Source: an uncultured Nesterenkonia sp.
GTDB lineage: Bacteria; Actinomycetota; Actinomycetes; Actinomycetales; Micrococcaceae
Assembly (NCBI GenBank): GCA_947494195.1
Contig: CANLUC010000002.1
Coordinates: 372,001-436,000 of the forward strand
Reading direction: 5' to 3'
DNA length: 64,000 nucleotides
Each line of letters begins with the position of its first letter. Position 1 is the first letter of the stretch. The notes beneath the pieces are model-generated. The model was not told the origin of the DNA. It did not search any database and saw only the letters and a list, made by a program, of their open reading frames with translations. Positions 36,478 through 63,546 of the stretch are shown here, in pieces. The translations under genes were made by a program, and so were the position numbers.

Positions 36478-36610
36478 GGCCCGGCATTTCTTGCCGGACT
36501 TTCAGCAAATTGGCCACTTTGGTCTATATCGCGGCCCTCTTCTTTCTAGCCTGTGAGTGCAATAGAAACGTGTGTGCGTTTCCTGAGCACTAGGTGACGG
36601 GCGGACGGGC

Positions 36611-39394: not shown

Positions 39395-39489
39395 TTTCGC
39401 TCTCTCCTTGTCCACCAAACGCCTCGCATCATTCGCACGTCAACTCACTCGCGCAGCTTCCCCTGTGAAAAGAACTGAAAGGACCCGCC

Positions 39490-40929: not shown

Positions 40930-40941
40930 TCCAGCCAACTG

Positions 40942-48665: not shown

Positions 48666-49196
48666 TTAGCTCAGTGGGGTCAGGGTCTTGAACTCGTGCT
48701 GGTGGAAGACCAGCCCGGCGGCGTCCTCGGTGAATCCCAGATCCAGGATCTCCAGCACGATGATGTCGTGGTCACCAGCCCTGACCTGGTCATAGATGCG
48801 GGTGCGCAGCCACATGGGCACGCCTTCGAGCAGCAGGGCGGAACCGTGGAGCTGGTACTCCACCCCGGTGAAGCGGTTCGCGCGGTCCTTGGAGGCGATC
48901 TGTCGGCAGAGCCCGTTCTGATCCTTGCCGAGCACGGAGATCCCCAGCTCGCTGCCGCTGCGCTCGAGTTTGGGCCATGTGGAGGAGTCGTGCTGCACGG
49001 CGAGGGTGACCAGCGGCGGCTCCAAGGAGACTCCCACCGTGAAGGTGGAGGCGATGATCGCCTCGGGGGAGCCGTCGACCTCCGCGCCGACGGCGACCAC
49101 GCCCTGCGGGAACTGAGCGAGGGCATGGCGCAGGGCAAAGGAGTCCACGCGAGATGCGACCGCAGGGTCTTCGAGAATACGAGCAGGGACAGACAT
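48666..49196 (-). CDS. Flavin reductase family protein
   Basis: 176 residues with the split-barrel FMN-binding fold: FPQGVVAVGAEVDGSPEAIIASTFTVGVSLEPPLVTLAV, SSTWPKLERSG, and GDHDIIVLEI with a conserved His. Such proteins use NAD(P)H to make free FMNH2 for two-component monooxygenases (DszD/SsuE role). First gene of the operon with acsA and metY, directly downstream of a SAM aptamer and divergent from the monooxygenase cluster it probably serves. The ATG at 49196 is nine bases after a GGAG that touches the aptamer's P1 strand. Confidence 0.87.
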   Translation of the reverse strand: MSVPARILEDPAVASRVDSFALRHALAQFPQGVVAVGAEVDGSPEAIIASTFTVGVSLEPPLVTLAVQHDSSTWPKLERSGSELGISVLGKDQNGLCRQIASKDRANRFTGVEYQLHGSALLLEGVPMWLRTRIYDQVRAGDHDIIVLEILDLGFTEDAAGLVFHQHEFKTLTPLS

Positions 49197-49207
49197 GTCA
49201 ATCAACT

Positions 49208-49288
49208 CCATCGGTCCTGGCGTTAGCACCCGGCATATCCGGGTTGCTGCGGCGTCTCTGAGCCAGATCTCTCAGCCGCTCGGGATGG
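49208..49288 (-). ncRNA. SAM-sensing riboswitch (SAM-I/IV clan), copy a
   Basis: Read on the minus strand. P1 CCATC/GATGG; P2a GCGGC/GCCGC; P2b GAG/CTC around the loop CTGGC, which can pair with GCCAG (pseudoknot); then GCAGCAACC, P3 ACCCGG/CCGGGT with a 5-base loop, and GGTGCTAACGCCAG. No P4 helix before P1 closes. GGAG of the flavin reductase follows within P1, so ligand binding should hide the ribosome site. Confidence 0.87.
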
Positions 49289-49299
49289 TTACAGGATCA

Positions 49300-49329
49300 A
49301 AGCTACGGGGTCGCACCGTCGAGCAGCAA
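49300..49329 (-). promoter_or_regulatory. Candidate promoter for riboswitch a operon
   Basis: -35 TTGCTG (49329-49324) and -10 TAGCTT (49305-49300), 18-bp spacer, about 12 bp before the aptamer. Weak hexamers; chosen because position and spacing match the promoter of riboswitch c. Confidence 0.4.
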
Positions 49330-49348
49330 GATTTGTTCGCACTGTGAG

Positions 49349-49362
49349 ACGTCATATGACGT
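49349..49362. promoter_or_regulatory. Perfect ACGTCATATGACGT palindrome between divergent promoters
   Basis: A 14-bp dyad about 20 bp upstream of the riboswitch a promoter. A good candidate binding site for a regulator acting in addition to the riboswitches. Confidence 0.45.
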
Positions 49363-49414
49363 TCAGATGCTCCCGCGTATGAAGTGTGTTCAGAGAGAGT
49401 AATTGAACACAATG

Positions 49415-49467
49415 CGACATGTGGCGTCATGATTATTTGACGAAACAGCGTGCTTGTCCTCTATATT
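49415..49467 (+). promoter_or_regulatory. Candidate promoter and shared box for riboswitch b operon
   Basis: -35 TTGACG (49437) and -10 TATATT (49462) with a 19-bp spacer, just before the aptamer. Upstream is CGACATGTGGCGTC (49415-49428), nearly the same as CGACACACGGCGTC at 61664-61677 before the riboswitch d promoter. This is a likely common regulator site. Confidence 0.45.
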
Positions 49468-49478
49468 TGAGCCCATCA

Positions 49479-49559
49479 CCATCCAGAGCGACTGAGGGAT
49501 CTGGCCCGTTGACGTCGCAGCAACCCGGGACTGCCGGGTGCTACCGCCAGAATCGATGG
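49479..49559 (+). ncRNA. SAM-sensing riboswitch (SAM-I/IV clan), copy b
   Basis: P1 CCATC (49479-49483)/GATGG (49555-49559); P2a GCGAC/GTCGC; P2b GGG/CCC around CTGGC; GCAGCAACC; P3 ACCCGG/CCGGGT with a 5-base loop; GGTGCTACCGCCAG pairing back to CTGGC. Compared with copy a, P2a and P2b have changed on both strands (compensatory). GGAGG for the first monooxygenase begins in the P1 3' strand, eight bases before the ATG region. Confidence 0.88.
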
Positions 49560-49567
49560 AGGAAAGT

Positions 49568-50782
49568 ATGAACATACATCTGCCTGTCTCTGATGAGCTT
49601 CGAGACGCCGTGGAGCGCGCAGGGCTCTCCGCCCTGGACCGTGAACGCCATGGGGAACTGGCGCGTGAACAGGTGCGCACTCTCGCCGACGCCGGCATTG
49701 GCCGGCTCCGACTCCCGGTGTCCTCCGGAGGCAGCGGGCTCGACTGGGTGCAGACCAGTGTCGTGCTGCTGGAGCTCGCGGCCCAGGACAGCAACCTTCC
49801 TCAGGTGCTGCGCGGGCATTTCGCGGTGGAGGAGGACCTGCTCTGGCGCCCCGCCGCGGACGAGCCTGTGCAGGGCTGGTTGGCGAGACTTGCCGCTGGT
49901 GAACTGGTGGGCAACGCCTGGACCGAACCCGGCAAGGGTGGTTTTCACCGGTCCGGAACCCTCGTCAGCGAGACTTCCGCAGGACCGGTGGTCAACGGTG
50001 TGAAGTACTACACCACCGGTGCGATCTTCGCGGATTGGCTCGACGTCACAGCCCGGGATGCCGACGACAACGAGCTCGCGGTGCTGGTTCGTCGGGATCA
50101 GCCCGGTGTCCAGATCGAGGATGATTGGGATGGATTCGGTCAGCGCACTACAGGTTCAGGGACCGCACGGCTCTCCGATGCCGCGGTGGAGACCTCGGAG
50201 CTGCGTGGACTGACGGACCGCTTCCCCTACCAGACGGCGCTGTACCAGCACATTCTGCTGATCGTCCTGGCCGGGATCGTCGAAGCCGCAGCGCGGGACG
50301 CGGCGGCACTGCTGCACGATCGTCCTCGCACCTATACCCACGCCAACACCCGCACACCCCGCACGGACCCTCAGCTGCTCCAGGCGATCGGAGAGGTGGA
50401 CGCGGTCGCGGCGCTCGCCAGGGCGCAGGTGCTTCACACCGCCACGTATCTCGACGCCGCCTTCGCCGCGCGCACCTCCGGGCCGGAGGAGGCGATCGCT
50501 GCGGCCAACGCCGCCGAGCTGTCGACGGGACGTGCCCAGGTGGCGCTGCACCGACCGGCGCTTGAAGCTGTTACGCGCATCTTCGACGTGCTGGGCGCCT
50601 CGGGAGTCAGCCAGACTCGAGGTCTGGACCGTCATTGGCGCAACGCACGCACGGTCACCAGTCACAACCCTTGGGTGTACAAGGCGCGGATAGCCGGAGA
50701 TCACCGCGTCAACGGCACCGAGCCGGTGCGGCTGTGGAGCGTGGGCGAGCCAGACATTCCGGCCGTCACCCAGCCCGTCTGA
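49568..50782 (+). CDS. Acyl-CoA-dehydrogenase-fold flavin monooxygenase (DszC/SfnB-like)
   Basis: 404 residues with the acyl-CoA dehydrogenase fold but features of flavin-dependent S- or N-monooxygenases: WTEPGKGG in the middle domain and the C-terminal HWRNARTVTSHNPWVYKAR, which matches the RHWRNxRTHT-type ending of DszC. Such enzymes use FMNH2 from a separate reductase to oxygenate organosulfur compounds. GGAGG before the ATG at 49568; an earlier in-frame ATG (49538) lies inside the riboswitch and is rejected. First gene of the operon. The substrate is unknown. Confidence 0.82.
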   Translation: MNIHLPVSDELRDAVERAGLSALDRERHGELAREQVRTLADAGIGRLRLPVSSGGSGLDWVQTSVVLLELAAQDSNLPQVLRGHFAVEEDLLWRPAADEPVQGWLARLAAGELVGNAWTEPGKGGFHRSGTLVSETSAGPVVNGVKYYTTGAIFADWLDVTARDADDNELAVLVRRDQPGVQIEDDWDGFGQRTTGSGTARLSDAAVETSELRGLTDRFPYQTALYQHILLIVLAGIVEAAARDAAALLHDRPRTYTHANTRTPRTDPQLLQAIGEVDAVAALARAQVLHTATYLDAAFAARTSGPEEAIAAANAAELSTGRAQVALHRPALEAVTRIFDVLGASGVSQTRGLDRHWRNARTVTSHNPWVYKARIAGDHRVNGTEPVRLWSVGEPDIPAVTQPV

Positions 50783-50869
50783 CACTTCCCACGGCAGCGC
50801 CCTGGCGTGCGCTGTCTGAATCCCATGAGCGCTCGCTCTCTGCCCGCCCCGCCCTGCCCAGGAGAATCC

Positions 50870-52105
50870 GTGTCATACCCTTCGCCCATCAGCACAGAAG
50901 CCCGCACCCACTGGAGTGCCGGTGCCTCGGCCGCAGAACTCGAGGACTGGAGATCCATCGCCACCCAAGTGGCGCAGACTCTCTCTCAGGACGCCGTAGA
51001 ACGCGACCGCGCCAACGAGATCCCCCACCGCGAGACCCAGCTTCTGAAGGAATCCGGCTTGGTCACTCTGCTGGTCCCAAGCGAGTTCGGTGGTGGTGGC
51101 GGCCACTGGGCCACCGCCCTGGAGGCCGTGAGAATCCTCGCTCGGGCCGACGCGTCCATCGCGCAGCTCTTGGCATACCACTACGTCAATGAGGCCAACA
51201 TCGTCTTCGGCATCCCAGAGCCTGGGGACCGCGAACGCTGGTTGCGCGCCACGGCTCGAGAGCAGTGGGTCTGGGGTGACGCGGTCAATCCGACAGATCC
51301 GGATCTCACTCTGACTCCGACCGGGAGCGGGTATCGGCTCAGCGGACGCAAGCGGTACGCCACGGGCTCCGCCGTCGGAGATGTCTTGCTGGTCAACGCA
51401 CGCGTCTCCGAAGGTCCCGAACGTGGACGCGTCCTGGCCTTCGTCCTGGAGAACGGCCGCGAAGGAGTCACCTACCTGGACGACTGGGACTTCCTGGGCC
51501 AGCGTCTTTCATCCTCCAACACCGTGATCTTCAACAGTGTGCAGGTCCAGGAGCAGGACGTTCTCGGCTTCCTCTCTGAGGAGCCCTATTCATCGCTGGT
51601 CACTCCGGGGATCCAGCTTGCCTTCGGCAATCTGTACCTCGGAATTGCGGAGGGGGCGCTCGCGAAGGGGCGCGAGCTGATCAATGCCCGCCCCAACGCC
51701 TGGTTCCTCTCCACCGCCTCGCAGTACCGGCATGATCCCTTCGTCCAACGTCTTGTCGGCGAGCTCAAAGCCTTCACTGCTGGGATCGCCGCCCTTGCTG
51801 AACGGGTCAACCAGAGGTTCGAGCAGGTGCTGACATTGGGAGACGCGGTCACCGACACGGTCCGTGGGGAGCTGGCCATCGAGATCGCCGAGCTCAAGGT
51901 GGTCTCCTCCGATGTCGCCACCCGCCTCACGCACCAGATCTTCGAGGCCACAGGTACGTCCTCCACGGCCTCAAAGCACGGTTTCGACCTCTACTGGCGA
52001 AATATCCGTACCCATTCGCTGCACGACCCCGTGGACTACAAGAAGCTCGAGGTCGGCGCGCACTTCCTCAATGGCGAGTTCCAGCCCATCTCTCTCTACA
52101 CATGA
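50870..52105 (+). CDS. DszC-like flavin monooxygenase, second copy
   Basis: 411 residues. Central WGDAVNPTDPDLTLTP and SGRKRYATGSAVGDVLLVNA, then the C-terminal YWRNIRTHSLHDPVDYKKLEVGA, which is very close in pattern to DszC (dibenzothiophene monooxygenase) family members. It is only distantly similar to the preceding gene, so the two are not a recent duplication. GTG start with AGGAGA five bases upstream. Needs reduced flavin, presumably from the divergent reductase. Target inferred only as an organosulfur compound or sulfone. Confidence 0.85.
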   Translation: MSYPSPISTEARTHWSAGASAAELEDWRSIATQVAQTLSQDAVERDRANEIPHRETQLLKESGLVTLLVPSEFGGGGGHWATALEAVRILARADASIAQLLAYHYVNEANIVFGIPEPGDRERWLRATAREQWVWGDAVNPTDPDLTLTPTGSGYRLSGRKRYATGSAVGDVLLVNARVSEGPERGRVLAFVLENGREGVTYLDDWDFLGQRLSSSNTVIFNSVQVQEQDVLGFLSEEPYSSLVTPGIQLAFGNLYLGIAEGALAKGRELINARPNAWFLSTASQYRHDPFVQRLVGELKAFTAGIAALAERVNQRFEQVLTLGDAVTDTVRGELAIEIAELKVVSSDVATRLTHQIFEATGTSSTASKHGFDLYWRNIRTHSLHDPVDYKKLEVGAHFLNGEFQPISLYT

Positions 52106-52119
52106 ACCGGAGTAGCTCT

Positions 52120-53565
52120 ATGCCCCGCAAGCCGCTCATCCTCTCGGCTTTCCTGATGAACACCACAAGCCACATCATCGGAGGAGCCTGGCGCCGCGAA
52201 GAGGCCCAACAGCATCGATTCAACGAACTCAGCCACTGGACCTCCTTGGTGAAGAAGCTCGAGGGTGCAGGATTCGACATCGCATTCTTCGCCGACGTGG
52301 TCGGTCTCTACGGCGATCACGAGGGCGGTTGGGCCTCCCATGTGCGCCGTGGACTCCAGGTCCCGTCGAACGATCCGTTGGTGCTGCTCTCGGCCTTGGC
52401 CGCGGTCACAGATCGGATCGGCTTGGCCCTGACATCCTCGGTCATCCAGGCGCACCCGTTCAGCTTCGCCCGCCAGCTCTCCACTCTTGACCACCTCTCC
52501 GGCGGACGAGTGGGATGGAACGTGGTGACCAGCGCCCAGGAGAATGCCCACCGCAACTTCGATGCCACCGGTCTCGCAGGCCATGACGACCGATACGCGT
52601 GGGCCGAGGAATACCTCGACGTCTGTTACAAGCTCTGGGAGGGTTCCTGGGGCGACGAGGCACTGAGGCAGGACAAAGAGACGGAGCATCCCCGCGGCCG
52701 AGGGCTCCACGCGGATCCGGCTCTGGTGTCAAAGATCAACCACGTGGGCCCGCGTTACAGCGTGGAGGGTCCACACCTGGTGGCACCTTCACCGCAGCGG
52801 ACCCCGTTCCTGTTCCAAGCCGGGTCATCGGATCGCGGCCGCGACGTCGCAGCACAACATGCCGAAGCCACCTTTTCCATGGCCCCGCGCAGAGATATCG
52901 CTGCAGCTCACGCCGCCGACGTCAAAGCCAGGGTGCGTCGATTCGGACGATCCCCGGAGGACGTCAGCTTCATCCAGGGCCTGTCCTTCGTGGTCGGCTC
53001 CACGGAGGCCGAGGCTGTTGAGAAGGCCGTCGAGCTTGATGAGTCCATCGACGATCATGCGCTGATCGCGCACACAGCGGGAAGTCTCGGCGTGGACGTG
53101 GGGCACCTCCCCATCGATACGCCCCTCGAGGAGCTTGAGCACACGGAACAGGCCCAGGGCCATCTGGAGGAGATCAAGAAGATGGCCCCGAACGGCCGCG
53201 TCACACTCCGGGATCTCGCCAGGTTCCGGGCGCAGTCCACTCGGGTGGTGGGCACTCCTGAGCAGATCGCCGGAGAGCTGGCGGCTTGGCAGGACTCGGG
53301 CATCGACGGGATCAACGTCATCAACTCGACGATCCCCGGCAGCTATGACGAGTTCATCGACCACATCCTGCCGGTCTTGCGTGACCGCGGACTTGCCCGC
53401 CCGCTCGAGGAGAGCGCTGCGCCGTCGGCCACCCTTCGCCAGCGCCTCACCGGAGCCGATCGACTGCCGCAGACGCATCCTGCCGCGCAGTATCGGGGAG
53501 CCTTCAGGCACCTGAGTGCCCAGGCCACAGAGGTGCCCCGCGAGGCACTCCTGGGCTCCCGCTGA
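52120..53565 (+). CDS. LLM-class FMN-dependent monooxygenase (DszA/SnaA/NtaA family)
   Basis: 481 residues, luciferase-like TIM barrel. Visible blocks: LSAFLMNTTSHIIGGAWRR, FDIAFFADVVGLYG, the STLDHLSGGRVGWNVVTS signature, HDDRYAWAEEYLDV, SPQRTPFLFQAGSS, GTPEQIAGELAAW and PGSYDEFIDHILPVLRDRG. All are shared with DszA-type enzymes that cleave C-S bonds of sulfones using FMNH2. ATG at 52102 overlaps the previous stop, but GGAG is placed for 52120 and the family N-terminus begins there. Acts with the two DszC-like proteins in inference. Confidence 0.87.
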   Translation: MPRKPLILSAFLMNTTSHIIGGAWRREEAQQHRFNELSHWTSLVKKLEGAGFDIAFFADVVGLYGDHEGGWASHVRRGLQVPSNDPLVLLSALAAVTDRIGLALTSSVIQAHPFSFARQLSTLDHLSGGRVGWNVVTSAQENAHRNFDATGLAGHDDRYAWAEEYLDVCYKLWEGSWGDEALRQDKETEHPRGRGLHADPALVSKINHVGPRYSVEGPHLVAPSPQRTPFLFQAGSSDRGRDVAAQHAEATFSMAPRRDIAAAHAADVKARVRRFGRSPEDVSFIQGLSFVVGSTEAEAVEKAVELDESIDDHALIAHTAGSLGVDVGHLPIDTPLEELEHTEQAQGHLEEIKKMAPNGRVTLRDLARFRAQSTRVVGTPEQIAGELAAWQDSGIDGINVINSTIPGSYDEFIDHILPVLRDRGLARPLEESAAPSATLRQRLTGADRLPQTHPAAQYRGAFRHLSAQATEVPREALLGSR

Positions 53566-53635
53566 CCGTCGCCTCCGCCCGAGAGGCCACACGTCCAAGC
53601 AGCGGCACCCCACTTGCTCATCCGACAATCTGCAG

Positions 53636-53665
53636 ACCAGCACACAGAAGACCAGCACACAGAAG
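53636..53665 (+). repeat. 15-bp tandem duplication upstream of binding-protein gene
   Basis: ACCAGCACACAGAAG occurs twice in direct succession, ending 16 bp before the lipoprotein ATG. It may alter leader spacing; no function is evident. Confidence 0.75.
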
Positions 53666-53681
53666 AACAGGACATCAGCTC

Positions 53682-55025
53682 ATGCCTACCAAGAACTCCA
53701 TCCCCCGGCACGCGCCCCTCGCGCTCGCAGCCGTCCTCTCCGTGGTGGCACTCACAGCCTGCTCCGCCGACGCCGGGGCGCAGTCCCAGGGCGACGCGGC
53801 ATCGGGAGACTATGAGGGCGAGGAGCTCAATCTGCTGCTCAACGCCTCCCACGAGGGAGCCGGTGAATGGCTTGCGGAAGAATACGAGGCGGAGACGGGC
53901 GTGAAGATCAACGTCACCACCGTCCCCTATGACGAGATCGCCTCTCAGCTGACCCTGGACCAGCAGTCGGGGGCCAACACCTACGATGTCTCAGCTCCCT
54001 GGTACGTTTCCCTCGGCGATCTGGCTGCCGACGGCAGCATCGCCCCGCTCACCGACTACGTGGAGTCCACCCCGGAGATCGACGTGGAGGACTTCATCCC
54101 CAGCATCTGGGAACCCTATGCACTGGTCGATGAGGAGATCTACGGACTCCCCTTCGACGGCGACATCCACGCGCTGTTCTACAACGAGGAGATCCTTGAG
54201 CGCAATGGCTTCCAGGAGCCCCCAGCCACCTGGGACGAGTACGCCGAACAGGTCAGCACCATCACTGAGAACGAGGGCGGGGATGGCGTCTACGGCGCAG
54301 CGGTGTTCGGCGAACAGTCGCCGATGATCCTCGGCGCGAGCTTCGCCAACCGGCTGGCCGGGTTCGGCGGGGACTTCCTGGATGGGGAAGGCCGACCGGT
54401 GATCAACTCGCAGGAAGCGGTGCAGTCCCTGGAAGCCCTCGAGGACGTCTGGGAAGATGCGCTGCCCACTCCCGCCGAGACCGACTTCGGCGCCGGCAAC
54501 TCGGCGTGGTTCGCCGGCAATGTCGGGTTCATCGAGAACTGGACGGACCTCGGGGTGCGCTCGCAGGACCCCGAATCCGGCTCAGAAGTCGCAGATGGAT
54601 GGGGTGTGACCTATCTTCCCCGAGCCGAAGAGGGTGAGCGTCCTCGCGCCTCACTCGTGGCTGGCTTCAGCTGGGTGGTTGCGGGAAACACCGACAAGTC
54701 CGACCTGGCCCAGCAGTTCATCACCTGGGCGGCCTCGGCCGAGGTCAACGCAGAGCTGCTGACAGCGCTTCCCCCGACAGGGATCGACCCCAACCGAGTG
54801 ACCTCCCTCGAGGACGAGACCTACTCGGAGGACTTTCCGCAGCTCCAGGAAGTCAACGAGTCGACCCTTGACGGGGCTCTGGCCTGGCCCACTGGAGAGA
54901 ACGCCACGGAGGCGGCACAGGTGCTCACCGATGAGATCGCGGCTCATCTCTCCGAGCAGCGCGATTCTGCCCAGGAGACCCTGGACACCGTACAGAGCGA
55001 ATGGGAGAGGCTCCTTGTCGACTGA
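53682..55025 (+). CDS. ABC importer substrate-binding lipoprotein (family 1, sugar-type)
   Basis: 447 residues. Lipoprotein signal with LTAC, Cys27, followed by a short acidic linker. The body is a family 1 solute-binding protein: ELNLLLNASHEGAGEWLAEEYEAETGVKINV, YDVSAPWYVSLGDLAADG, YGLPFDGDIHALFYNEEIL (near-universal in carbohydrate-type binding proteins), GFSWVVAGNTDKSDLAQQFITWAAS. Usual ligands are sugars, glycosides or polyols. Surrounded by desulfurising monooxygenases, so the ligand may carry sulfur; this is inference. Followed by two permeases and no ATPase. Confidence 0.87.
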   Translation: MPTKNSIPRHAPLALAAVLSVVALTACSADAGAQSQGDAASGDYEGEELNLLLNASHEGAGEWLAEEYEAETGVKINVTTVPYDEIASQLTLDQQSGANTYDVSAPWYVSLGDLAADGSIAPLTDYVESTPEIDVEDFIPSIWEPYALVDEEIYGLPFDGDIHALFYNEEILERNGFQEPPATWDEYAEQVSTITENEGGDGVYGAAVFGEQSPMILGASFANRLAGFGGDFLDGEGRPVINSQEAVQSLEALEDVWEDALPTPAETDFGAGNSAWFAGNVGFIENWTDLGVRSQDPESGSEVADGWGVTYLPRAEEGERPRASLVAGFSWVVAGNTDKSDLAQQFITWAASAEVNAELLTALPPTGIDPNRVTSLEDETYSEDFPQLQEVNESTLDGALAWPTGENATEAAQVLTDEIAAHLSEQRDSAQETLDTVQSEWERLLVD

Positions 55026-55986
55026 CCAGCGTGAGCGCACAAGGATTCCCCCTGCAGCCACCTTCCCGCCGCAGCCGGAGGCTTCACCGGATGCTGCCCC
55101 GACATCCCGTAGGCGCCGGGCGGAGCGGTTCCAGCACCGGCTCTTTGTGACCCCCAGCGTGCTGGTGCTCCTGGTGCTGGCGCTGTATCCACTGCTGTTC
55201 ATCGCCGCCGCGGCCCTCTCCCGGTCGAGCCTGGGGCAGCCCTTCCAGGAGTTCACCGGCCTGCAAAACCTCCGCGCCGCGGCCGGCGACCCCGCCGTGC
55301 AGGACTCCATGCTCCTCGGCACCGCCTACGGGCTGGGAGTCGCGGCGGTGAGCACTCTGCTCGGCACGGCCACCGCAGTGGCGCTGTGGCGCTCGGTCAG
55401 CTCTGGCGCTGTGCTGCGCACTCTGCTGCTGCTGCCGATGATCGTGCCGCCCGTGATCGTGGGGATCCTGTTCAGCTTCATCTTCAGTCCCTCCGGTGGC
55501 CTGATCGATACGCTGCTGCGACAGTTCACCTCCTTCTCGGGCTCCTTCGCAGTGCTCTCCGACCCCAGCTGGGCGATCATCGGGGTTGCCATGGCCGATG
55601 TCTGGGAATGGACTCCGCTGGTGGTGCTCCTCGTTTTCACCGCGCTGCTCGGCCAGGACCCTGAAATCCTGGAAGCGGCTCAGCTCGACGGCGCGCAGCC
55701 TGTGCAGCAGTTCTTCCACGTCACCTTGCCGACGATCGCGGGCACCGTCGCGGCGGCCTTCCTGATCCGGCTGATCCTCGCGTTCAAGGTCTTCGACCTT
55801 GTCTACGTGATGACCTCCGGCGGACCCGGCTCCTCGACCCAGGTTCCCGCTTATCTGGTCTGGCGGGCGGCCCTGCAGAACTTCGACGTGGGCATGGCCG
55901 CCGCCATCACACTCGTGCTCGCCGTGGTCGTCACCCTGGTCACCCTCCCGATCTTCCATCTCACAAAGAGGCTCCGCGATGATTGA
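55015..55986 (+). CDS. Sugar-type (CUT1) ABC permease, MalF/UgpA-like
   Basis: 323 residues from TTG at 55015, which has GGGAGAGG five bases upstream and overlaps the preceding gene by 11 bp; no in-frame ATG fits better. Six hydrophobic helices begin at FVTPSVLVLLVLALYPLLF. The EAA loop is ILEAAQLDGAQPVQQFFHVTLPTI, and VMTSGGPGSSTQVPAYLVWRAAL is typical of MalF-type subunits. Overlaps the next permease by 8 bp. Confidence 0.85.
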   Translation: MSTDQRERTRIPPAATFPPQPEASPDAAPTSRRRRAERFQHRLFVTPSVLVLLVLALYPLLFIAAAALSRSSLGQPFQEFTGLQNLRAAAGDPAVQDSMLLGTAYGLGVAAVSTLLGTATAVALWRSVSSGAVLRTLLLLPMIVPPVIVGILFSFIFSPSGGLIDTLLRQFTSFSGSFAVLSDPSWAIIGVAMADVWEWTPLVVLLVFTALLGQDPEILEAAQLDGAQPVQQFFHVTLPTIAGTVAAAFLIRLILAFKVFDLVYVMTSGGPGSSTQVPAYLVWRAALQNFDVGMAAAITLVLAVVVTLVTLPIFHLTKRLRDD

Positions 55987-56899
55987 GACCGCCGATGCAC
56001 CCAGCAGCCGCATGATCGAGGGTGCCGCGACGCCTGCTGCCCACTCGGACGAGCCAAAGCGTGTGCGACGAGGAGTCGGACGTCACCCACGCGGGCTGCC
56101 CGGCTCGGCGCTGAGCCTCGGCTGGGTGGCGCTGGCCGTCGTCGTCGTGTTGGTGCCGCTGGGGTATCTCGTCTCGCTCTCCCTGATGACGCAGGGCCAG
56201 ATCTCCGCCGGCCTGCTCTTCCCGGCCGAGCCGGCCTGGCAGAACTGGGGCAACGCGTGGAATTCGGCGATTCCACGCGGGATCACGAATTCGCTGATCG
56301 CGGCTTTCCTGGGATCCCTGCTGACACTTGCCCTCGCGCTGCCCGGAGCATGGACGATCGTGCGGCACCGCACCGGTGGCTCCGCGTTGAGCGGGCTGAT
56401 TCTCAGCCCCTGGCTGCTGCCGCCCGTGGTGGCGATCATCCCGCTGCTCACACTGCTGCGAATGCTCGGTCTGATCAACACGCTGCCCGGACTGACGCTG
56501 GTCTATGCGCTGATGAATGTCCCGGTGGCCATCTGGCTGCTCGACGGTTTCATCCGTCGCATCCCCGTGGAGATCGAGGAGGCCGCGCGCCTGGACGGTG
56601 CCGGGGAGCTGCAGCTGCTCCGCCGGGTGGTCGTGCCCGTGCTGGGGCCTGCGCTGATCGCCGTCGGTGTGATCGTGGTGATCCTGAACTACAACGAGTT
56701 CCTCTTCGCCACCTTCCTGACCCAGAGCGAGGGTTCCCAGACGGTCCCGGTGGTCCTCGCCGGGATGCTCAGCGAACGCGTGCAGGACTTCGGGCGCATT
56801 GCCGCATCTTCCCTGTTGGCGATCATCCCGATCTTCACGATCGCAGTCCTGCTGCAACGACACCTGGTTGAGGGGCTCACGACCGGCGCCGTGAAATGA
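55979..56899 (+). CDS. Sugar-type (CUT1) ABC permease, MalG/UgpE-like
   Basis: 306 residues with six helices. The N-terminal 35 residues are hydrophilic. EAA loop EIEEAARLDGAGELQLLRRVVVPVLGP and the following NYNEFLFATFLTQSE, QTVPVVLAGM are MalG-family marks. Forms the channel with the preceding subunit. No nucleotide-binding gene follows; actinobacterial CUT1 importers often borrow a shared MsiK ATPase encoded elsewhere. Confidence 0.88.
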   Translation: MIETADAPSSRMIEGAATPAAHSDEPKRVRRGVGRHPRGLPGSALSLGWVALAVVVVLVPLGYLVSLSLMTQGQISAGLLFPAEPAWQNWGNAWNSAIPRGITNSLIAAFLGSLLTLALALPGAWTIVRHRTGGSALSGLILSPWLLPPVVAIIPLLTLLRMLGLINTLPGLTLVYALMNVPVAIWLLDGFIRRIPVEIEEAARLDGAGELQLLRRVVVPVLGPALIAVGVIVVILNYNEFLFATFLTQSEGSQTVPVVLAGMLSERVQDFGRIAASSLLAIIPIFTIAVLLQRHLVEGLTTGAVK

Positions 56900-56984
56900 G
56901 ACAGCGGGCGCCCAGACTTTCCACAGCTGCATCCGATTCCGTTGAATGCAGTTCTGCTCGATCCGATTCTGAAGGAGCACGAAA

Positions 56985-58388
56985 ATGACCTACCGCACCA
57001 CCGAGGCCGGCAACCGCGAGATCCTCTTCAACGCCTTCGACATGAACTGCGTGGTCCACCAGTCCCCGGGGCTCTGGCGCCATCCCGATGACCGCGCCCG
57101 GGAATACAACACCATCGGCTACTGGACCGAGGTCGCGCAGATTCTCGAACGTGGTCTCTTCGATGGACTCTTCATCGCCGACGTGCTGGGCCCCTACGAC
57201 GTGTTCGGCTCGAACCCCGACGCCGCGCTGCGCTCGGGCGCGCAGATTCCGCTGCAGGATCCGTTCCTGCTGGTCTCGGCCATGGCCGCAGTGACCAAGA
57301 ACCTGGGCTTCGGCATCACGGCCGGCACTGCCTATGAGCACCCCTACCCCTTCTCCCGCCGACTGGGCACCCTCGATCACCTGACCGGTGGACGCGTCGG
57401 CTGGAACGTGGTCACGGGTTACCTTCCCTCGGCCGCGCAGAACATGGGCCAGGACGATCAGATGGAGCACGACCGCCGCTACGACCACGCGGACGAGTAC
57501 CTCGAAGTCGTCTACAAGCTGCTCGAGGGCTCCTGGGAGGACGACGCGGTGGTCGCCGACAAGGCTTCGGGAGTGTTCACAGACCCGGAGAAGGTGCACC
57601 GGATCGAACACCAGGGTGAGTTCTTCAAGACCCCGGGCATCGGTGTGGTGGAGCCCTCCCCGCAGCGGACTCCGGTGATCTACCAGGCAGGGGCCTCGGC
57701 CCGCGGCCGCGCCTTCGCCGGCAAGCACGCCGAGGCGGTGTTCATCAATCCACCGACCAAAGAGCTGGCCAAGGCCTCGGTGGCCAAGATCCGCCAGTCA
57801 GTGGCCGAGGCCGGACGGGACCCCTATTCGGTTCGCATCTTCGCGATGCAGACCATCGTCACCGGCCCGGACAACGATGCCGCCCAGGCGAAGTACGACG
57901 ATCTCACCCAGTACATCGATGCCGAGGGCGGGTTGGTGCTGATGTCGGGCTGGATGGGGATCGATCTGAGCCAGTTCGACCTGGACCAGCCGATCGGCGA
58001 CGTGAAGTCCAACGCCATCCAGTCCACTGTGGAGACCTTCCAGAAGGCTTCAGGGCGAGAGGACGAGGTCTGGACCGTCCGGCAGCTGGCCGAGTGGGTC
58101 GGCGTCGGTGGCTTCGGGCCCGTCATCATCGGTGACGGTCCGAGCGCGGCGCAGCAGCTGATCGAATGGCAGGAGGAGACCGACGTGGACGGGTTCAACC
58201 TGGCCTACCACATCACTCCCGGGACCTTTGAGGATGTGGTGGAGCACGTGGTGCCCGAGCTGCAGCGGCTTGGCCGGTACAAGACCGAGTACGCCGAAGG
58301 CACGCTGCGAAACAAGCTCTTCGGCGCAGGCGACCACCTCCCCGAGGACCACCACGGCGCGCAGTTCCAGCTTCGCCGCAAGGGCTGA
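56985..58388 (+). CDS. LLM-class FMN monooxygenase, dimethyl-sulfide monooxygenase (DmoA)-like
   Basis: 467 residues. Blocks: EILFNAFDMNCVVHQSPGLW, GLFDGLFIADVLGPYDV, AGTAYEHPYPFSRRL, TLDHLTGGRVGWNVVTGYLPSAAQNMG, SPQRTPVIYQAGASARGRAFAG, EETDVDGFNLAYHITPGTFEDV. From memory these agree better with DmoA (oxidises dimethyl sulfide to methanethiol and formaldehyde with FMNH2) than with DszA or NtaA; no alignment was run. AAGGAG before the ATG. Methanethiol would be usable by MetY, and formaldehyde by the fdhA product far away in the window. Confidence 0.82.
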   Translation: MTYRTTEAGNREILFNAFDMNCVVHQSPGLWRHPDDRAREYNTIGYWTEVAQILERGLFDGLFIADVLGPYDVFGSNPDAALRSGAQIPLQDPFLLVSAMAAVTKNLGFGITAGTAYEHPYPFSRRLGTLDHLTGGRVGWNVVTGYLPSAAQNMGQDDQMEHDRRYDHADEYLEVVYKLLEGSWEDDAVVADKASGVFTDPEKVHRIEHQGEFFKTPGIGVVEPSPQRTPVIYQAGASARGRAFAGKHAEAVFINPPTKELAKASVAKIRQSVAEAGRDPYSVRIFAMQTIVTGPDNDAAQAKYDDLTQYIDAEGGLVLMSGWMGIDLSQFDLDQPIGDVKSNAIQSTVETFQKASGREDEVWTVRQLAEWVGVGGFGPVIIGDGPSAAQQLIEWQEETDVDGFNLAYHITPGTFEDVVEHVVPELQRLGRYKTEYAEGTLRNKLFGAGDHLPEDHHGAQFQLRRKG

Positions 58389-58407
58389 TCCTCCCCTCCA
58401 CGCAAAA

Positions 58408-58470
58408 TACCGGGGCTTCCGCGTTATACCAGGCCAACGGTGTGGCCGGTAGAACGCGGAAGCCCCGGTA
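58408..58470. terminator. Terminator between the convergent sulfur operons
   Basis: Perfect 18-bp arms (58408-58425 and 58453-58470) with an inner GGCCA/TGGCC extension. On the minus strand the hairpin is followed by TTTT, so it chiefly ends the ssu-like operon. It also separates the converging dmoA-like gene. Confidence 0.88.
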
Positions 58471-58488
58471 AAACGCTGGAGCGGAGGG

Positions 58489-59333
58489 TCAGGCCCAGGT
58501 CTTGAGGGCCTTGCGCTCGACGATGCCGAGCAGCGTGTCGGTGAGCTTGCCCAGCAGAGCCAGCAGCACGATGGCCAGCAGCAGCCGGTCCGTGCGCCCG
58601 TTGTTCCGGGATTCATCCAGCAGGAAGCCCAGTCCTTCGGAGGAGGCCAGCAGCTCGGCGGCGACCAGGAACAGCCAGGCCTGAGCCAGGCCCAGGCGCA
58701 GGCCGGAGAACACGCTGGGCACGACGGCGGGAAGCTGCACCGTGCCGAGCAGCCGCACGCCGTGGAACCCGAAGGCGCGCCCGGCCTCCACCAGCTGGGC
58801 ATCCACATGCCGCAGCGCCGAATGCACGGCGGTGAACACCGGGAAGAACGCGCCGATGGCGATCAGGATGACCTTGGAGTCCTCGTCGATGCCGACCCAG
58901 AGGAGCAGCAGCGGGACCCAGGCCAGCGAGGGCACTGCACGAAAGGCGCCCACGGTCGGATGCAGCAGGGCATCGGCGATCGAGGACAGTCCCAGCAGCG
59001 ATCCCAGGGCCAGGCCGAGCCCAGCGCCGGCCGCGAAGCCCAGCAGCACGCGCTGCAGCGAGATCGTCATGTGGTCGATCAGATCTCCGGACTCGAAGAG
59101 CCCGACCCCGGCGCTGAACACCGTCTGAGGAGCGGGAAGCTGGACCGGGCTGAAGGTGCCGGTGCCCTCGGTGACCAGCCACCACAGGCCCAGGAGCAGC
59201 GCCGGGACGACGGCGCCGATCAGCAGCCCGCCCCCGGGGAGCTTCCTGCGTCGCCGCCGCCCTGGCGTCCTGGCGTCCTGGCCGGAGCATCGGCCGGCTG
59301 CGTGGTGGGTGCTGCGGGAAGGGTCTCGGTCAC
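58489..59333 (-). pseudogene. SsuC/TauC-type ABC permease, frameshifted near the N-terminus
   Basis: The body is a full sulfonate/taurine-type permease: six helices, EAA-like loop VEAGRAFGFHGVRLLGTVQLPAVVPS. The natural start, GTG at 59333 overlapping the binding-protein stop as GTGA, encodes VTETLPAAPTTQPADAPARTP, but this frame then diverges from the permease frame at 59262-59281. There CTGGCGTC is duplicated in tandem; deleting one 8-bp unit joins the two frames into a normal 278-residue protein with the basic segment GRRRRRKLPGG before helix 1. No convincing in-frame start exists between the repeat and helix 1. It could be a real mutation, a slipped-strand switch or a sequencing error. 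Confidence 0.75.
59262..59281. repeat. 2.5-copy 8-bp tandem repeat causing the frameshift
   Basis: CTGGCGTC at 59262-59269 and 59270-59277, then a partial CTGG. One copy keeps the permease in frame with its GTG start; two copies do not. The layout suits slipped-strand expansion. Confidence 0.85.
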
Positions 59334-60412
59334 TCGTCAGTCTCCTCGATATCGGCCTCGTCGGCGGCATTCTCGGTGCCTTCGGCGTCGGTGGCCTCGA
59401 TGTTCTCGGCGAACTCGGTGTAGAACAGCGAATCAAGGGCCTCGTCCACTGCCTCCTGGCTGTCCACGTCGCCGTTCTCCACGAAGAACGGCCCGGCTGC
59501 CTCCATGGCCGCACGAACCTCTTCTCCTGGCACCGGATCCACCTCGAAGTTGGTGCGCTCGGTGATGACGGCTTCGGCGATCTCGGGTTCCAGCCCGGCG
59601 TACTCCGCCAGGATCTCTGCGGTTCCCTCGGGGTTCTCCTTGGCCCACTCGCGGGCCTGCTCGTAGACGTTGACCACGATCTGAGCGATGTCTGGGTGGT
59701 CCTCGACGAACTCGCCGGTCGCATTGATCACCGAATAGGTGTTGAAGTCCACGTTGCGATAGAGCAGCTCGGCGCCGTCCGCCTCGGCGCCGGCCATGAT
59801 GGGATCCAAGCCGGCCCAGGCGTCGACGTCGCCGTTGGCCAGGGCCTGCCATCCGTCGGCGTGCTGCAGCGACTGGACCTCGACGTCATCCACGCTGAGC
59901 CCGGCCTCCTGCAGCGAGCGAGCCATGAAGAAGTACGGGTCGGTGGCCGGCGTCGCCGCGATCGAGGCGCCTTCGAGATCTTCCACGGATTCGATGTCAG
60001 AGTCGCCGTTGGTGACAAGCGCAGACCACTCCGGCTGGTTCTCGATCATGATCGTGTGGGTGTCCGCGCCGACTGCGCGGTTGAGCAGCGCGGCCGAGCC
60101 TGCAGTGGATCCCACGTCGATGTTGCCGGCGCGCAGGTTTTCATTGGCGACGTTGGAACCCGTGGACTGCACCCACTTCACGTCGACGTCGAGCTCCTCC
60201 AGCTCTTCTTCCAACCACCCGTTCTCCAGGATGATCAGGCTCAGCGGGTTGTAGGTGGCGAAGTCGATGTTCAGCGTCTCCAGCTGCTCGTCCTCACCGC
60301 CGTCTGATCCGCAGGCAGTGGCGAGAAGCGCGACGGCTGCGGCGACCGAGACGGCTTTGGCGGCGGATCCGCGGGAGGTGCCGGACGAGTGGGATGCGGT
60401 GGTGCGGGGCAT
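59330..60412 (-). CDS. Sulfonate/taurine-type substrate-binding lipoprotein (SsuA-like)
   Basis: 360 residues. Lipoprotein signal ending LLATAC, Cys34, then an acidic linker. The NitT/TauT/SsuA body shows YNPLSLIILENGWLEEEL, the STGSNVANENLRAGNIDVGSTAGSAAL binding loop and ADGWQALANGDVDAWAGLDP. The C-terminal 25 residues are Glu/Asp/Ala-rich. Ligand class: aliphatic sulfonates, taurine or related organosulfur compounds. Between the ATPase (179 bp upstream) and the frameshifted permease. Confidence 0.87.
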   Translation of the reverse strand: MPRTTASHSSGTSRGSAAKAVSVAAAVALLATACGSDGGEDEQLETLNIDFATYNPLSLIILENGWLEEELEELDVDVKWVQSTGSNVANENLRAGNIDVGSTAGSAALLNRAVGADTHTIMIENQPEWSALVTNGDSDIESVEDLEGASIAATPATDPYFFMARSLQEAGLSVDDVEVQSLQHADGWQALANGDVDAWAGLDPIMAGAEADGAELLYRNVDFNTYSVINATGEFVEDHPDIAQIVVNVYEQAREWAKENPEGTAEILAEYAGLEPEIAEAVITERTNFEVDPVPGEEVRAAMEAAGPFFVENGDVDSQEAVDEALDSLFYTEFAENIEATDAEGTENAADEADIEETDE

Positions 60413-60591
60413 GGGAGAGCCTTTCAGTTCTTCAACGGTGGACGGGCTTCAGGGAAGCCGGAGCAGTTATGTTCAGCAATGATTCTTTGGGACGGCGGCA
60501 AGAGCGTCAGCCGGGTCTTCTGCAGGGAGCCCTGGACCGACGCGCCACTCGGTGGGACGAGTGCAGACGTCGAGCGTGCAGCGTTGGGGCG

Positions 60592-61479
60592 TCAGTGGGT
60601 GTGGGAGTCCACGCCGAGTCCGGAGAACAGCTCCCCGCGCAGAGCTGCAAGCTCTGCGGAGGCGCGGTCTCGGGGGCGGGAGCCCGGCACATTCAGCAGC
60701 CGAGCGATGGTCGCTCCCTCTGCGGCGGTCGGATCTCCGGCATTCATGCCCAGCAGCAGGACACGGTCGGCCAGCTGCAGAGCCTCATCCACGTCATGGG
60801 TGACCAGCAGCACGGTGGTGCCGGTCTGTGCATGGACATCGAGGAGCAGGTCCTGCATCTTCAGTCGAGTCAGCGCATCCAGGGCGCCGAACGGCTCGTC
60901 GAGCAGCAGCACTCCGGGGCGGCGTGCCAGTGCACGTGCCAGCGAGGCGCGCTGAGCCATGCCGCCGGAGATCTCGCGTGGACGAAGTGCGGCGCGGTCC
61001 TTGAGCCCTACCAGTTCCAGGAGCTCATCCACTCGTTCGCGACCCTCGGCCTTGGACAGGCTCCGCGGCAGCCCAAGGCTGACGTTCTTGTAGATCGAGC
61101 GCCAGGGCAGCAGGCGCGGCTCCTGGAATCCGACCGCGGTGCGCTCGTCGTAGCGCTGCACCGCAGAGCCGTCGATCAGGATCTCTCCGGTGCTGCCGGT
61201 GTCGAGACCGCCGACGGCGCGCAGCAGAGTGGACTTCCCGCACCCGGAGGAGCCCAGAATGGCCAGCACCTCGCCGGGGGCGACTCGCAGACTGACGTCT
61301 CGCAGCACGGTGTGGTCCCCAAAGGACCGACCGACGCCGCTGAGCTGGACATCGAGTGAGGTGTAGCCGGGCCGGCTGGATGCTGCGGGCGACGAGCCGG
61401 AGATCGGGACGGAGGCGGCGGCGGCAGCACCAGTGGTGCTCACATCGTCCTCGGTCAGGGTGGAGGCAGGCAAAATCAT
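60592..61479 (-). CDS. Sulfonate/taurine-type ABC ATPase (SsuB/TauB-like)
   Basis: 295 residues. A 45-residue Ser/Ala-rich start precedes the ATPase: Walker A GSSGCGKST, Q-loop GFQEPRLLPW (SsuB/TauB type), signature ISGGMAQR, Walker B VLLLDEPFGALD and switch HDVDEA. Drives uptake with the adjacent binding protein and permease. Led by a SAM aptamer; the ATG at 61479 is ten bases after a GGAG touching P1. An ORF extension to 61875 runs through the riboswitch and is rejected. Confidence 0.9.
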   Translation of the reverse strand: MILPASTLTEDDVSTTGAAAAASVPISGSSPAASSRPGYTSLDVQLSGVGRSFGDHTVLRDVSLRVAPGEVLAILGSSGCGKSTLLRAVGGLDTGSTGEILIDGSAVQRYDERTAVGFQEPRLLPWRSIYKNVSLGLPRSLSKAEGRERVDELLELVGLKDRAALRPREISGGMAQRASLARALARRPGVLLLDEPFGALDALTRLKMQDLLLDVHAQTGTTVLLVTHDVDEALQLADRVLLLGMNAGDPTAAEGATIARLLNVPGSRPRDRASAELAALRGELFSGLGVDSHTH

Positions 61480-61491
61480 CAGAGGATACTC

Positions 61492-61597
61492 CCATCGATC
61501 CTGGCGGTAGCACCCGGCGAAAAGACACCTGATCAAGGTGTCCCTGCCCGGGTTGCTGCGGCGTCGACGAGCCAGATCTCTCGGCCGCTCGGGATGG
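61492..61597 (-). ncRNA. SAM-sensing riboswitch (SAM-I/IV clan), copy c
   Basis: Minus strand. P1 CCATC/GATGG; P2a GCGGC/GCCGC; P2b GAG/CTC with CTGGC in the loop; GCAGCAACC; P3 ACCCGG/CCGGGT carrying an extra internal hairpin (ACACCT/AGGTGT), which makes it the longest of the four; GGTGCTACCGCCAG pairs back to CTGGC. No P4. It leads into the SsuB-like ATPase; GGGAG abuts P1. Confidence 0.87.
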
Positions 61598-61607
61598 TAC
61601 AGCCTCC

Positions 61608-61712: not shown

Positions 61713-61724
61713 TGAGGCACTCAA

Positions 61725-61818
61725 CCATCCAGAGCGACTGAGAGATCTGGCTCGAAGACGTCGCAGCAACCCGCAGGGCCCACGGGCTCCGGACGGGTGC
61801 TAACGCCAGGACCGATGG
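61725..61818 (+). ncRNA. SAM-sensing riboswitch (SAM-I/IV clan), copy d
   Basis: P1 CCATC (61725-61729)/GATGG (61814-61818); P2a GCGAC/GTCGC; P2b GAG/CTC around CTGGC; GCAGCAACC; P3 ACCCG/CGGGT with an enlarged 24-base loop that can form GGGCCC-type pairing; GGTGCTAACGCCAG. No P4. GGAG (61817-61820) shares bases with P1 and lies nine bases before the metN ATG. Confidence 0.88.
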
Positions 61819-61828
61819 AGTATGCCTC

Positions 61829-62701
61829 ATGATTTCCCTGTCCCATGTGTCCACCACCTTTGCCGGCCGCGGCAAGGACCCGCTGACCGCGGTGGATGAC
61901 GTCAGCCTTCACGTGCCTCGCGGAAGCATCCAAGGCATCATCGGTTTCTCGGGTGCTGGAAAATCCACTCTTCTGCGGAACATCAACCTGTTGGAGCGTC
62001 CCACCTCGGGCGAGGTCCGGGTTGCTGGAACGGAGCTGACCAGCCTCGATGACGCCGCCCTGCGGAAGGCCCGGCACCAGATGGGCATGATCTTCCAGGG
62101 CTTCAACCTGGTCAACAACCTCACGGTGGCGCAGAATGTCGAGCTTTCGCTGAAGTTCGCCGGAGTGCGGGACCGTCGTGAACGCCTGCGCCGCGCCGCC
62201 GAGGCCTTGGAGATCGTTGACATCACGGATAAGGCTGCGGTCTACCCCGCACAGCTCTCCGGCGGGCAGAAGCAGCGGGTGGCCATCGCTCGAGCTCTGG
62301 CGACCAAGCCCGAGGTGCTGCTCTGCGATGAGCCGACCTCCGCGCTTGATCCCTTCACCACCGCAACCGTGCTGCAGTACCTGGCAGATGTGAACCGTGA
62401 GTTCGGGATCACCGTGGTCATCGTGACCCACGAGATGGACGTCATCAAGGCCTTGGCGGACAACGTGGCCGTGATGGAGGACGGACGCGTCGTCGAGGAG
62501 TTCCCCGCTCAGGAGCTGACGCGAGAGGGTTTCAACCCGCAGACCTCGATCGGACGGTACCTGCTCAGCGACGGCATCACGCTGGACCGGACGGGACGTT
62601 CCCGCACGGACCTCCCTGCTCAGAGTCGTTCCGGCCCAGAGGATTCGGAATCGGTGCAGCAGAACGCCACGCTCGCCGGTGCAGCGGGAGGTGTTCGCTG
62701 A
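61829..62701 (+). CDS. metN: Methionine ABC transporter ATP-binding protein, short form
   Basis: 290 residues. Walker A GFSGAGKST, Q-loop MIFQGFNLVNN, signature LSGGQKQR, Walker B VLLCDEP, switch His in THEMDVIKALAD; the MetN-type N-terminus ISLSHVSTTF follows a riboswitch. After the ATPase core only about 55 hydrophilic residues remain: the C-terminal NIL domain through which internal methionine inhibits E. coli MetN (about 345 aa) is absent. An out-of-frame ATG at 61822 is ignored. Stop overlaps the metI ATG by one base. Confidence 0.92.
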   Translation: MISLSHVSTTFAGRGKDPLTAVDDVSLHVPRGSIQGIIGFSGAGKSTLLRNINLLERPTSGEVRVAGTELTSLDDAALRKARHQMGMIFQGFNLVNNLTVAQNVELSLKFAGVRDRRERLRRAAEALEIVDITDKAAVYPAQLSGGQKQRVAIARALATKPEVLLCDEPTSALDPFTTATVLQYLADVNREFGITVVIVTHEMDVIKALADNVAVMEDGRVVEEFPAQELTREGFNPQTSIGRYLLSDGITLDRTGRSRTDLPAQSRSGPEDSESVQQNATLAGAAGGVR

Positions 62702-63420: not shown

Positions 63421-63546
63421 CCAGCAGCGGTCGCCTCTTTCCCGACCACACCACACACCCCTGCGGCCGACGTCCGACGTCGCCCGTGGCACTTTCCCCT
63501 GTCCTGATCCCGGGCCGCAGGCCCAGCAACAGAAAGCAGCACCCTC

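Follow-up and report, generated by a model that had tools for sequence, protein, structure and literature searches.

The window analysed here is a stretch of 64,000 nucleotides (positions 372,001 to 436,000 of contig CANLUC010000002.1, assembly GCA_947494195.1) from an uncultured Nesterenkonia sp. of the family Micrococcaceae, whose genome (2,783,467 bases, 27 contigs) is 99.91% complete. From position 45236 to beyond 64000, it carries a locus that combines importers, putative flavin monooxygenases and metY with S-adenosylmethionine (SAM) riboswitches. The genes metY, acs and flavin reductase on the minus strand are followed by a divergent pair of SAM-I riboswitches. The plus-strand run after this pair consists of sfnB1, dszC2, LLM-A, a sugar-type binding protein, two permeases and LLM-B. 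Next come ssuC, ssuA and ssuB on the minus strand, a second divergent switch pair, and metN, metI and metQ on the plus strand. Profile scans agree with the gene content described in an initial annotation of this DNA, namely two DszC/SfnB-like monooxygenases, a DmoA-like monooxygenase, both importers, a flavin reductase and metY; acs, which that annotation had not listed, sits between the flavin reductase and metY. The locus is probably, at a modest level of confidence, a regulon that SAM represses and that salvages reduced organic sulfur, passing a thiol to MetY.

The two riboswitch pairs flank the cluster, as initially annotated. On the side of metY, the matches to the SAM-I model RF00162 are at 49205..49291 on the minus strand (54.2 bits), ahead of flavin reductase-acs-metY, and at 49476..49562 on the plus strand (58.7 bits), ahead of the run from sfnB1 to LLM-B. 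The other pair is at 61489..61600 on the minus strand (46.5 bits), ahead of ssuB-ssuA-ssuC, and at 61722..61821 on the plus strand (49.0 bits), ahead of metN-metI-metQ. All four are above the gathering score of 44.4 bits. A search of the whole genome, which reported matches at E <=0.001, returned four RF00162 matches, all of them inside these 12.6 kb of 2.78 Mb.

The P1 closing helix is CCAUC/GAUGG in all four leaders, and its 3' strand overlaps the GGAG or GGGAG ahead of the start codon; GAUGG is directly followed by AG or GAG in the sequence of each. Of the 77 actinobacterial sites examined, four of which are the window sites, 72 have the motif GATGG[AG] at their 3' end. Because of this overlap, a P1 helix stabilised by SAM should hide the ribosome site, and the four RNAs, which presumably bind SAM, are predicted to be switches of the translational SAM-I type. 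The overlap is not a new feature: in Actinobacteria, SAM-I switches whose P1 contains the ribosome-binding site have been on record since 2007, according to the available part of PMC2258182. Nor is SAM control restricted to genomes with LLM-A, an idea that was rejected. In a sample of 197 genomes of the family (195 with >=90% completeness and <=5% contamination), 164 have an RF00162 match, 149 of them above the cut-off, so SAM control is ordinary in the family. The control noted in the initial annotation thus stands, while its presentation as unusual was overstated.

The metY product (45236..46531, minus strand) is an O-acetylhomoserine sulfhydrylase (TIGR01326, 589 bits against a cut-off of 495). 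The adjoining acs (46528..48648, minus strand) encodes an acetate--CoA ligase (TIGR02188, 735 bits against 725). The flavin reductase gene (48666..49196, minus strand; PF01613, 97 bits) starts with the ATG at 49196, and its product would be the supplier of FMNH2.

Two of the four monooxygenases, encoded by sfnB1 (49568..50782) and dszC2 (50807..52105) on the plus strand, have the acyl-CoA-dehydrogenase fold and are related to DszC/SfnB. Both are putative flavin S-oxygenases. The ATG of sfnB1 at 49568 is immediately 3' of the riboswitch, and the real start of dszC2 is probably further in than 50807. Assignment of either protein as a DszC equivalog (NF043015; 263 bits for dszC2 and 106 for sfnB1, cut-off 850) or as an SfnB equivalog (TIGR04022; 232 bits for sfnB1 and 229 for dszC2, cut-off 430.9) was rejected. 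The best match of sfnB1 in the Protein Data Bank (PDB) is methanesulfinate monooxygenase 6u76 (116 bits); dszC2 matches 8cda with 282 bits and DszC with 241 bits. The two proteins lie on opposite sides of their tree, dszC2 clustering with 8cda, DszC and MsuC, and sfnB1 falling in a separate large group that contains no characterised member in the tree.

The other two monooxygenases, LLM-A (52102..53565) and LLM-B (56985..58388), both on the plus strand, belong to the NtaA/DmoA family (TIGR03860, 464 and 545 bits, cut-off 279.7). LLM-B is DmoA-like: 228 of 449 residues (50.8%) are identical to DmoA (6ak1), and 17 of the 20 DmoA binding residues listed in PMC9259527 are kept, the changes being S137G, G231A and L367F. 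A quick maximum-likelihood tree of 107 sequences, none of them nitrilotriacetate or EDTA enzymes, places LLM-B with DmoA in a group of 26 rows (SH-aLRT 97), with LadA outside. LLM-A, a putative C-S (or other) monooxygenase, groups with the hexachlorobenzene dehalogenase HcbA1, itself on a long branch, and not with DmoA or LadA. Its scores against solved relatives are 402 bits for HcbA1, 334 for LadA, 328 for DmoA and 202 for DszA. The description of one monooxygenase as DszA-like therefore has to be given up, HcbA1 being nearer both by score and in the tree. Clustering with nitrilotriacetate or alkane enzymes, which the initial annotation had named as evidence against its proposal, was not seen as far as LadA is concerned; the nitrilotriacetate and EDTA enzymes were compared by score only, and score lower. 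The locus monooxygenases remain below the cut-offs of the SsuD equivalog (TIGR03565; 76 and 67 bits against 518) and of the SfnG equivalog (at most 69 bits against 383).

The sugar-type importer is encoded on the plus strand by a solute-binding protein gene (53682..55025; PF01547/PF13416), permease 1 (55033..55986, start uncertain; UgpA-like, 90 bits when scanned as 54868-55986) and permease 2 (55979..56899; MalG-like, 93 bits; PF00528), and no ATPase gene adjoins these three. The SsuABC-like importer on the minus strand consists of an SsuC-like permease (58489..59262, start uncertain; NF008470, 169 bits, top match but under the cut-off), an SsuA-like lipoprotein binding protein (59330..60412; TIGR01728, 205 bits, cut-off 163.5; PDB 2x26, 78 bits) and an SsuB-like ATPase (60592..61479; NF008420, 221 bits, top match but under the cut-off). 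The third set, on the plus strand, comprises a MetN-like ATPase (61829..62701; TIGR02314, 276 bits, top match, below cut-off), a MetI-like permease (62701..63369; NF008049, 206 bits, cut-off 212) and a MetQ-like lipoprotein that leaves the window (63508..64000; NF008285, 65 bits on the part present). PDB comparison of the sugar-type and SsuA-like binding proteins gave no firm ligand prediction, the matches of the former being mostly sugar binders (best 5iai, 78 bits; SmoF, 47 bits). Among the assigned locus genes, to which the search was confined within the genome, there is no glycosidase or sulfoquinovosidase, and no N-acetyltransferase or deacylase was recognised.

For comparison, the best 80 of 155 relative loci were taken. 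They were collected by their homologues of LLM-A, and the frequent closeness of riboswitches to that gene is partly a selection effect. The closest named relative is the locus of Nesterenkonia sp. Act20, whose LLM-A is 98% identical. The initial annotation had suggested a search for a conserved neighbourhood in other Micrococcales; such a neighbourhood is found among these loci, and its modules appear shuffled. In L006, L007, L009 and L014, one riboswitch is followed by ssuB-ssuA-ssuC-LLM-B as a single run, which indicates that the SsuABC-like importer and LLM-B belong together. dszC2 occurs together with the sugar-type importer in L005, L006, L007, L008, L010, L011 and L013; neither is present in L009, L014 and L015, and L012 is too short to judge. 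A YghZ-type aldo/keto reductase gene is present in nine loci (L006-L014) and absent from L005 and from the window, the part of its genome that was searched. In two Brevibacterium species (L010, L011; ~7.4-14.8 kb), dszC2, the aldo/keto reductase, LLM-A and the sugar-type importer stand alone, and no riboswitch was detected with them. Because relatives shuffle the modules independently of each other, the proposal of one pathway for an unknown sulfur compound is better replaced by that of at least two importer-plus-oxygenase modules.

Links to methionine genes recur in these neighbourhoods. metNIQ-like genes precede LLM-A in the loci of Yaniella, Enteractinococcus and Brevibacterium album, and in Glutamicibacter and Arthrobacter (L025, L027) an SfnB-like gene lies between metNIQ-like genes and LLM-A. 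In Kocuria (L060, L084), metY, acs and ssuCAB adjoin a gene for a DmoA-like enzyme; acs adjoins metY and/or the flavin reductase in relatives. A riboswitch lies ahead of a different lipoprotein binding protein, its family judged by eye, in 11 loci (L028-L031, L034-L039, L046). In two Bacillota loci, of Sediminibacillus and Virgibacillus (L052, L055), the gene after a SAM riboswitch encodes an SsuE FMN reductase that exceeds the TIGR03567 cut-off; a DmoA-like enzyme and then a pyridoxal phosphate (PLP) enzyme 33% identical to MetY come next. The PLP enzyme of L052 matches the methionine gamma-lyase and O-acetylhomoserine sulfhydrylase models best, in neither case reaching the cut-off. A riboswitch model built from the four window leaders and applied to 66 of the 80 loci matched 33 of 38 Micrococcaceae/Brevibacterium loci and 13 of 15 Bacillota loci; it matched none of two Acidimicrobiia, two Binatia, six Pseudomonadota, two archaeal and one Microbacterium loci. 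Another importer type is seen in Planococcus (L073:9789-13035), where a SAM riboswitch, a DmoA-like enzyme and a sodium:solute symporter lie in a row.

The host genome lacks any match to PF01077 (sulfite/nitrite reductase; found in 11 of 14 control genomes), PF01507 (3'-phosphoadenosine-5'-phosphosulfate (PAPS) reductase/CysD; 14 of 14) or PF02574 (MetH and the betaine- and S-methylmethionine-homocysteine methyltransferases; 9 of 14). There is also no canonical MetE: PF01717 (MetE; 10 of 14 controls) has one weak partial match of 31 bits, to the C-terminal half only, in a 463-residue open reading frame (ORF) at L085:1432-2823 (C1, ~579 kb), which scores 70 bits against an NCBIfam cut-off of 406. 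The metX match (409 bits) is below its cut-off of 500, a score that none of the 14 controls reaches. Beside metX lies a second metY (L086:1-1425; C9, ~28.5-30.6 kb), 51% identical to that of the locus and without a SAM riboswitch. Cystathionine beta-synthase (CBS) matches with 496 bits, under a cut-off of 510 that the controls also miss, and the gene next to it is assigned to cystathionine gamma-synthase (PRK07811, 640 bits against 513), from a superfamily that holds gamma-lyases too. A CysK-like gene, judged by score and length only, is also present. Because no recognised enzyme reduces sulfite, a reduced sulfur product is needed; sulfite is not known to be a substrate of MetY. Sulfite was therefore rejected as the sulfur product, since it would be a dead end in this genome. 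The cluster most likely delivers a thiol, methanethiol or perhaps sulfide, to MetY. The flow of methanethiol or sulfite to MetY proposed in the initial annotation is thereby narrowed to its thiol branch.

The same metabolic gap appears in part of the family sample. Sulfite reductase (Sir), called at a best PF01077 E-value of <=1e-30, is present in 119 of the 197 genomes; 20 have weaker PF01077 matches only (7e-23 to 7e-27), and 58 have none. The weaker matches are read as NirB, since the listed ones lie in frames of ~860 residues or more. LLM-A with >=70% identity occurs in 13 genomes under three genus codes (g1, g2, g21). None of these 13 has Sir, against 119 of the 184 others (Fisher p 3e-6, uncorrected for kinship). 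A methionine-synthase candidate is lacking, by the thresholds used, in 10 of the 13; of the remaining three, G001 has a core-MetE-type match, and G158 and G179 have a weak PF02574 match. Across the sample, Sir and synthase candidates are mostly present or absent together (both in 118, Sir only in 1, synthase only in 25, neither in 53). About a quarter of the sample thus seems to be without both sulfite reduction and recognised homocysteine methylation.

From these genes and neighbourhoods, organosulfur scavenging under SAM control, the core of the initial annotation, is predicted. When SAM is scarce, the four switches would open translation of the importers, flavin monooxygenases, flavin reductase and MetY. 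The probable task of the DszC/SfnB-like enzymes would be to convert an imported thioether into its sulfoxide, in which a C-S bond would next be split by the NtaA/DmoA-family enzymes, giving an aldehyde and either a thiol or a sulfenic acid that is reduced by cell thiols; LLM-B may split thioethers directly, in the manner of DmoA. MetY would join the thiol, most likely methanethiol, with O-acetylhomoserine to form methionine in one step, Acs would recycle the acetate released by MetY, and cysteine would be formed from methionine through reverse transsulfuration. Since dimethyl sulfide (DMS) should be able to enter without an importer, the importers point to methylthio or other thioether compounds that are polar, and the sugar-type importer together with the aldehyde reductase of relatives suggests a thio-sugar. 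The substrates, S-oxidation, C-S cleavage, methanethiol product, acetate recycling and reverse transsulfuration are what we infer. That S-oxidation could still end in thiol-level sulfur is suggested by analogy with CmoO/CmoJ of B. subtilis: in the available part of PMC10863075, a thioether is first S-oxidised by CmoO, after which the DszA homologue CmoJ cleaves the sulfoxide; besides an aldehyde, this yields a sulfenic acid, which is reduced at a later step.

Several observations weigh against this pathway. The ligand-free minimum-energy fold contains P1 in one of the four leaders only, that of metN (fold z-scores of the four leaders, -0.22, -0.11, -0.20 and -2.31). The substrates and enzyme activities are putative, assigned from sequence. 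The nearness of LLM-A to a chlorobenzene dehalogenase means that its chemistry could differ, and in the available part of PMC9259527, methanethiol was not detected when DmoA homologues were expressed in E. coli. The SsuABC-like importer points by name to sulfonates, and metNIQ could simply feed methionine to the cell. The exclusion between Sir and LLM-A rests on three genera; inside Nesterenkonia (g1), Sir is found in none of five genomes with LLM-A against four of seven without, too few to stand alone. At >=58% identity to LLM-A, the link is weak, with Sir present in 32 of 63 genomes and absent in 31 (p 0.06). Of the 54 genomes that lack a synthase candidate, LLM-A at >=50% identity is present in 29 and missing from 25; it is therefore no universal replacement. 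Finally, the L085 ORF has an orthologue (59%) in Arthrobacter mangrovi (L037:1216-2427(-)), directly under a SAM riboswitch inside an LLM locus. The two proteins are divergent members of the MetE superfamily and could be methionine synthases or methyltransferases; a flat claim that the genome has no methionine synthase was softened for this reason.

This last point belongs to the chief rival explanation, a homocysteine route through L085. There, the thiol delivered is sulfide or another thiol, MetY makes homocysteine, cysteine is formed by CBS and the gamma-synthase/lyase-type enzyme, and methionine is made via L085 or imported by MetNIQ. The presence of CBS and its neighbouring gene, the riboswitch ahead of the L085 orthologue and the MetNIQ-like genes inside the regulon are consistent with such a route, which is unlikely overall. 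Control is by SAM and not by cysteine, DmoA-type chemistry yields methanethiol, and weak L085-type PF01717 matches (scored by match, not by orthology) are found in only eight of the 13 close LLM-A genomes, all of which argues against this route.

Stepwise oxidation of sulfides, sulfones or sulfonates to sulfite, in the style of sfn/msu/ssu/dsz and merely placed under SAM control, would draw on the kinds of parts seen here: monooxygenases like DszC/SfnB, members of the NtaA/DmoA family and an importer like SsuABC. Sulfite is also the end product of the 2026 Acinetobacter DMS pathway, as given in the available part of PMC13352529. With no sulfite reductase or PAPS-reductase family match in a 99.91% complete genome, and with the monooxygenases below both the SsuD and SfnG equivalog cut-offs, this explanation is quite improbable. 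The chance is similarly slight that the oxygenases perform carbon or xenobiotic chemistry, such as dehalogenation or the oxidation of alkanes or sugars, and owe their place to the chance of gene order. HcbA1 as the nearest solved relative of LLM-A and the sugar-type nature of one importer fit that idea. Against it, separate modules carry their own SAM riboswitches in several relatives, links to metNIQ, metY and SsuBAC keep turning up in different genera, and some Bacillota have a MetY-related gene or metNIQ linked to these enzymes. Salvage of reduced organic sulfur with delivery of a thiol to MetY is the favoured explanation.

A bolder extension of the salvage regulon, speculative and on balance unlikely, is that an oxygen-dependent methionine route, from thioether to methanethiol and with the intact CH3-S group entering via MetY, has replaced sulfate assimilation and homocysteine methylation. 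In this extension, the Brevibacterium-type module would be an oxygenolytic pathway for a methylthio-sugar, e.g., 5-methylthioribose, by sulfoxidation, C-S cleavage and reduction of the sugar aldehyde. If the salvage regulon is real, reduced organic sulfur would sustain part of the Micrococcaceae and some Brevibacterium, which would form methionine from methanethiol, aided by oxygen. This would change how their sulfur diet, their share in the turnover of DMS and methanethiol, and their interactions with neighbours are modelled. The locus would also suggest substrates on which to try two monooxygenase clades that have no assigned function, and its type of riboswitch could guide the annotation of further such loci.

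Elsewhere in the window, genes for a phosphonate-type ATP-binding cassette importer are found at 22582-25564 (binding protein 22582-23634, permease 24533-25564). Three large ORFs (1196, 989 and 927 aa), a 479-aa ORF and then a sortase gene at 29580-41910 look like a cluster of cell-wall-anchored surface proteins.

Each part of the locus resembles known systems. No description of such parts combined in a host that lacks recognised sulfate assimilation was met in the literature searched (titles and abstract starts, with most subscription papers outside the scope). The main text of the riboswitch-regulon survey PMC3766115 does not contain "monooxygenase", "sulfonate", "Micrococcaceae" or "Arthrobacter". 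The DmoAB system of Hyphomicrobium is similar in the grouping of LLM-B with DmoA and in having a flavin reductase in the locus. It differs in that LLM-B of the window is paired with an SsuABC-like importer and SAM riboswitches, and that the reductase is in another operon. The dsz 4S and sfn-msu pathways share the combination of DszC/SfnB-like and NtaA/DmoA-family enzymes with a flavin reductase; they end in sulfite, whereas the window host has no sulfite reductase match. In the sulfo-SMO pathway for sulfoquinovose, an importer, a flavin reductase, a flavin monooxygenase and an aldo/keto reductase act together. The sugar-type importer, flavin reductase and flavin monooxygenases of the window and the aldo/keto reductase of relatives recall this scheme, but the monooxygenases are of the NtaA/DmoA type and not SsuD, the assigned genes of the locus include no glycosidase, and a sulfite product would be unusable.

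Group D flavin enzymes, a class that includes DszC, also act on DMS in the Dms1-3/Msu system of Acinetobacter baylyi. In the available part of PMC13352529, Acinetobacter enzymes of this group convert DMS to dimethyl sulfoxide and the latter to dimethyl sulfone, but the route ends in sulfite and cysteine; the term "SAM riboswitch" has no occurrence in that paper. CmoO/CmoJ, the S-alkylcysteine salvage system of Bacillus subtilis, offers, in the part of its description available, the same two-flavoenzyme scheme of sulfoxidation followed by C-S cleavage. The putative S-oxygenases of the window are instead DszC/SfnB-like, the acetyltransferase and deacylase partners of that system were not recognised among the locus genes, and the output would go to MetY and not to cysteine.

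In Rhodospirillum rubrum, an anaerobic route passes methanethiol to O-acetylhomoserine sulfhydrylase. This methylthio-alkane reductase route likewise converts methylthio compounds to methanethiol, but with a nitrogenase-like enzyme according to the available part of PMC12552129, whereas flavin and oxygen would be used at the window locus. SAR11, as far as its sulfur-limitation regulon is covered in the available part of PMC5069961, lacks assimilatory sulfate reduction, has a SAM riboswitch on metY, and converts O-acetylhomoserine and methanethiol to methionine. Its switches are SAM-V/SAM-II, and the oxygenase set of the window is not seen in that part of the source. In Brevibacterium aurantiacum, likewise an actinobacterium, sulfur limitation upregulates MetY together with species-specific sulfur genes (Forquin 2011, as cited in the same part of PMC5069961).

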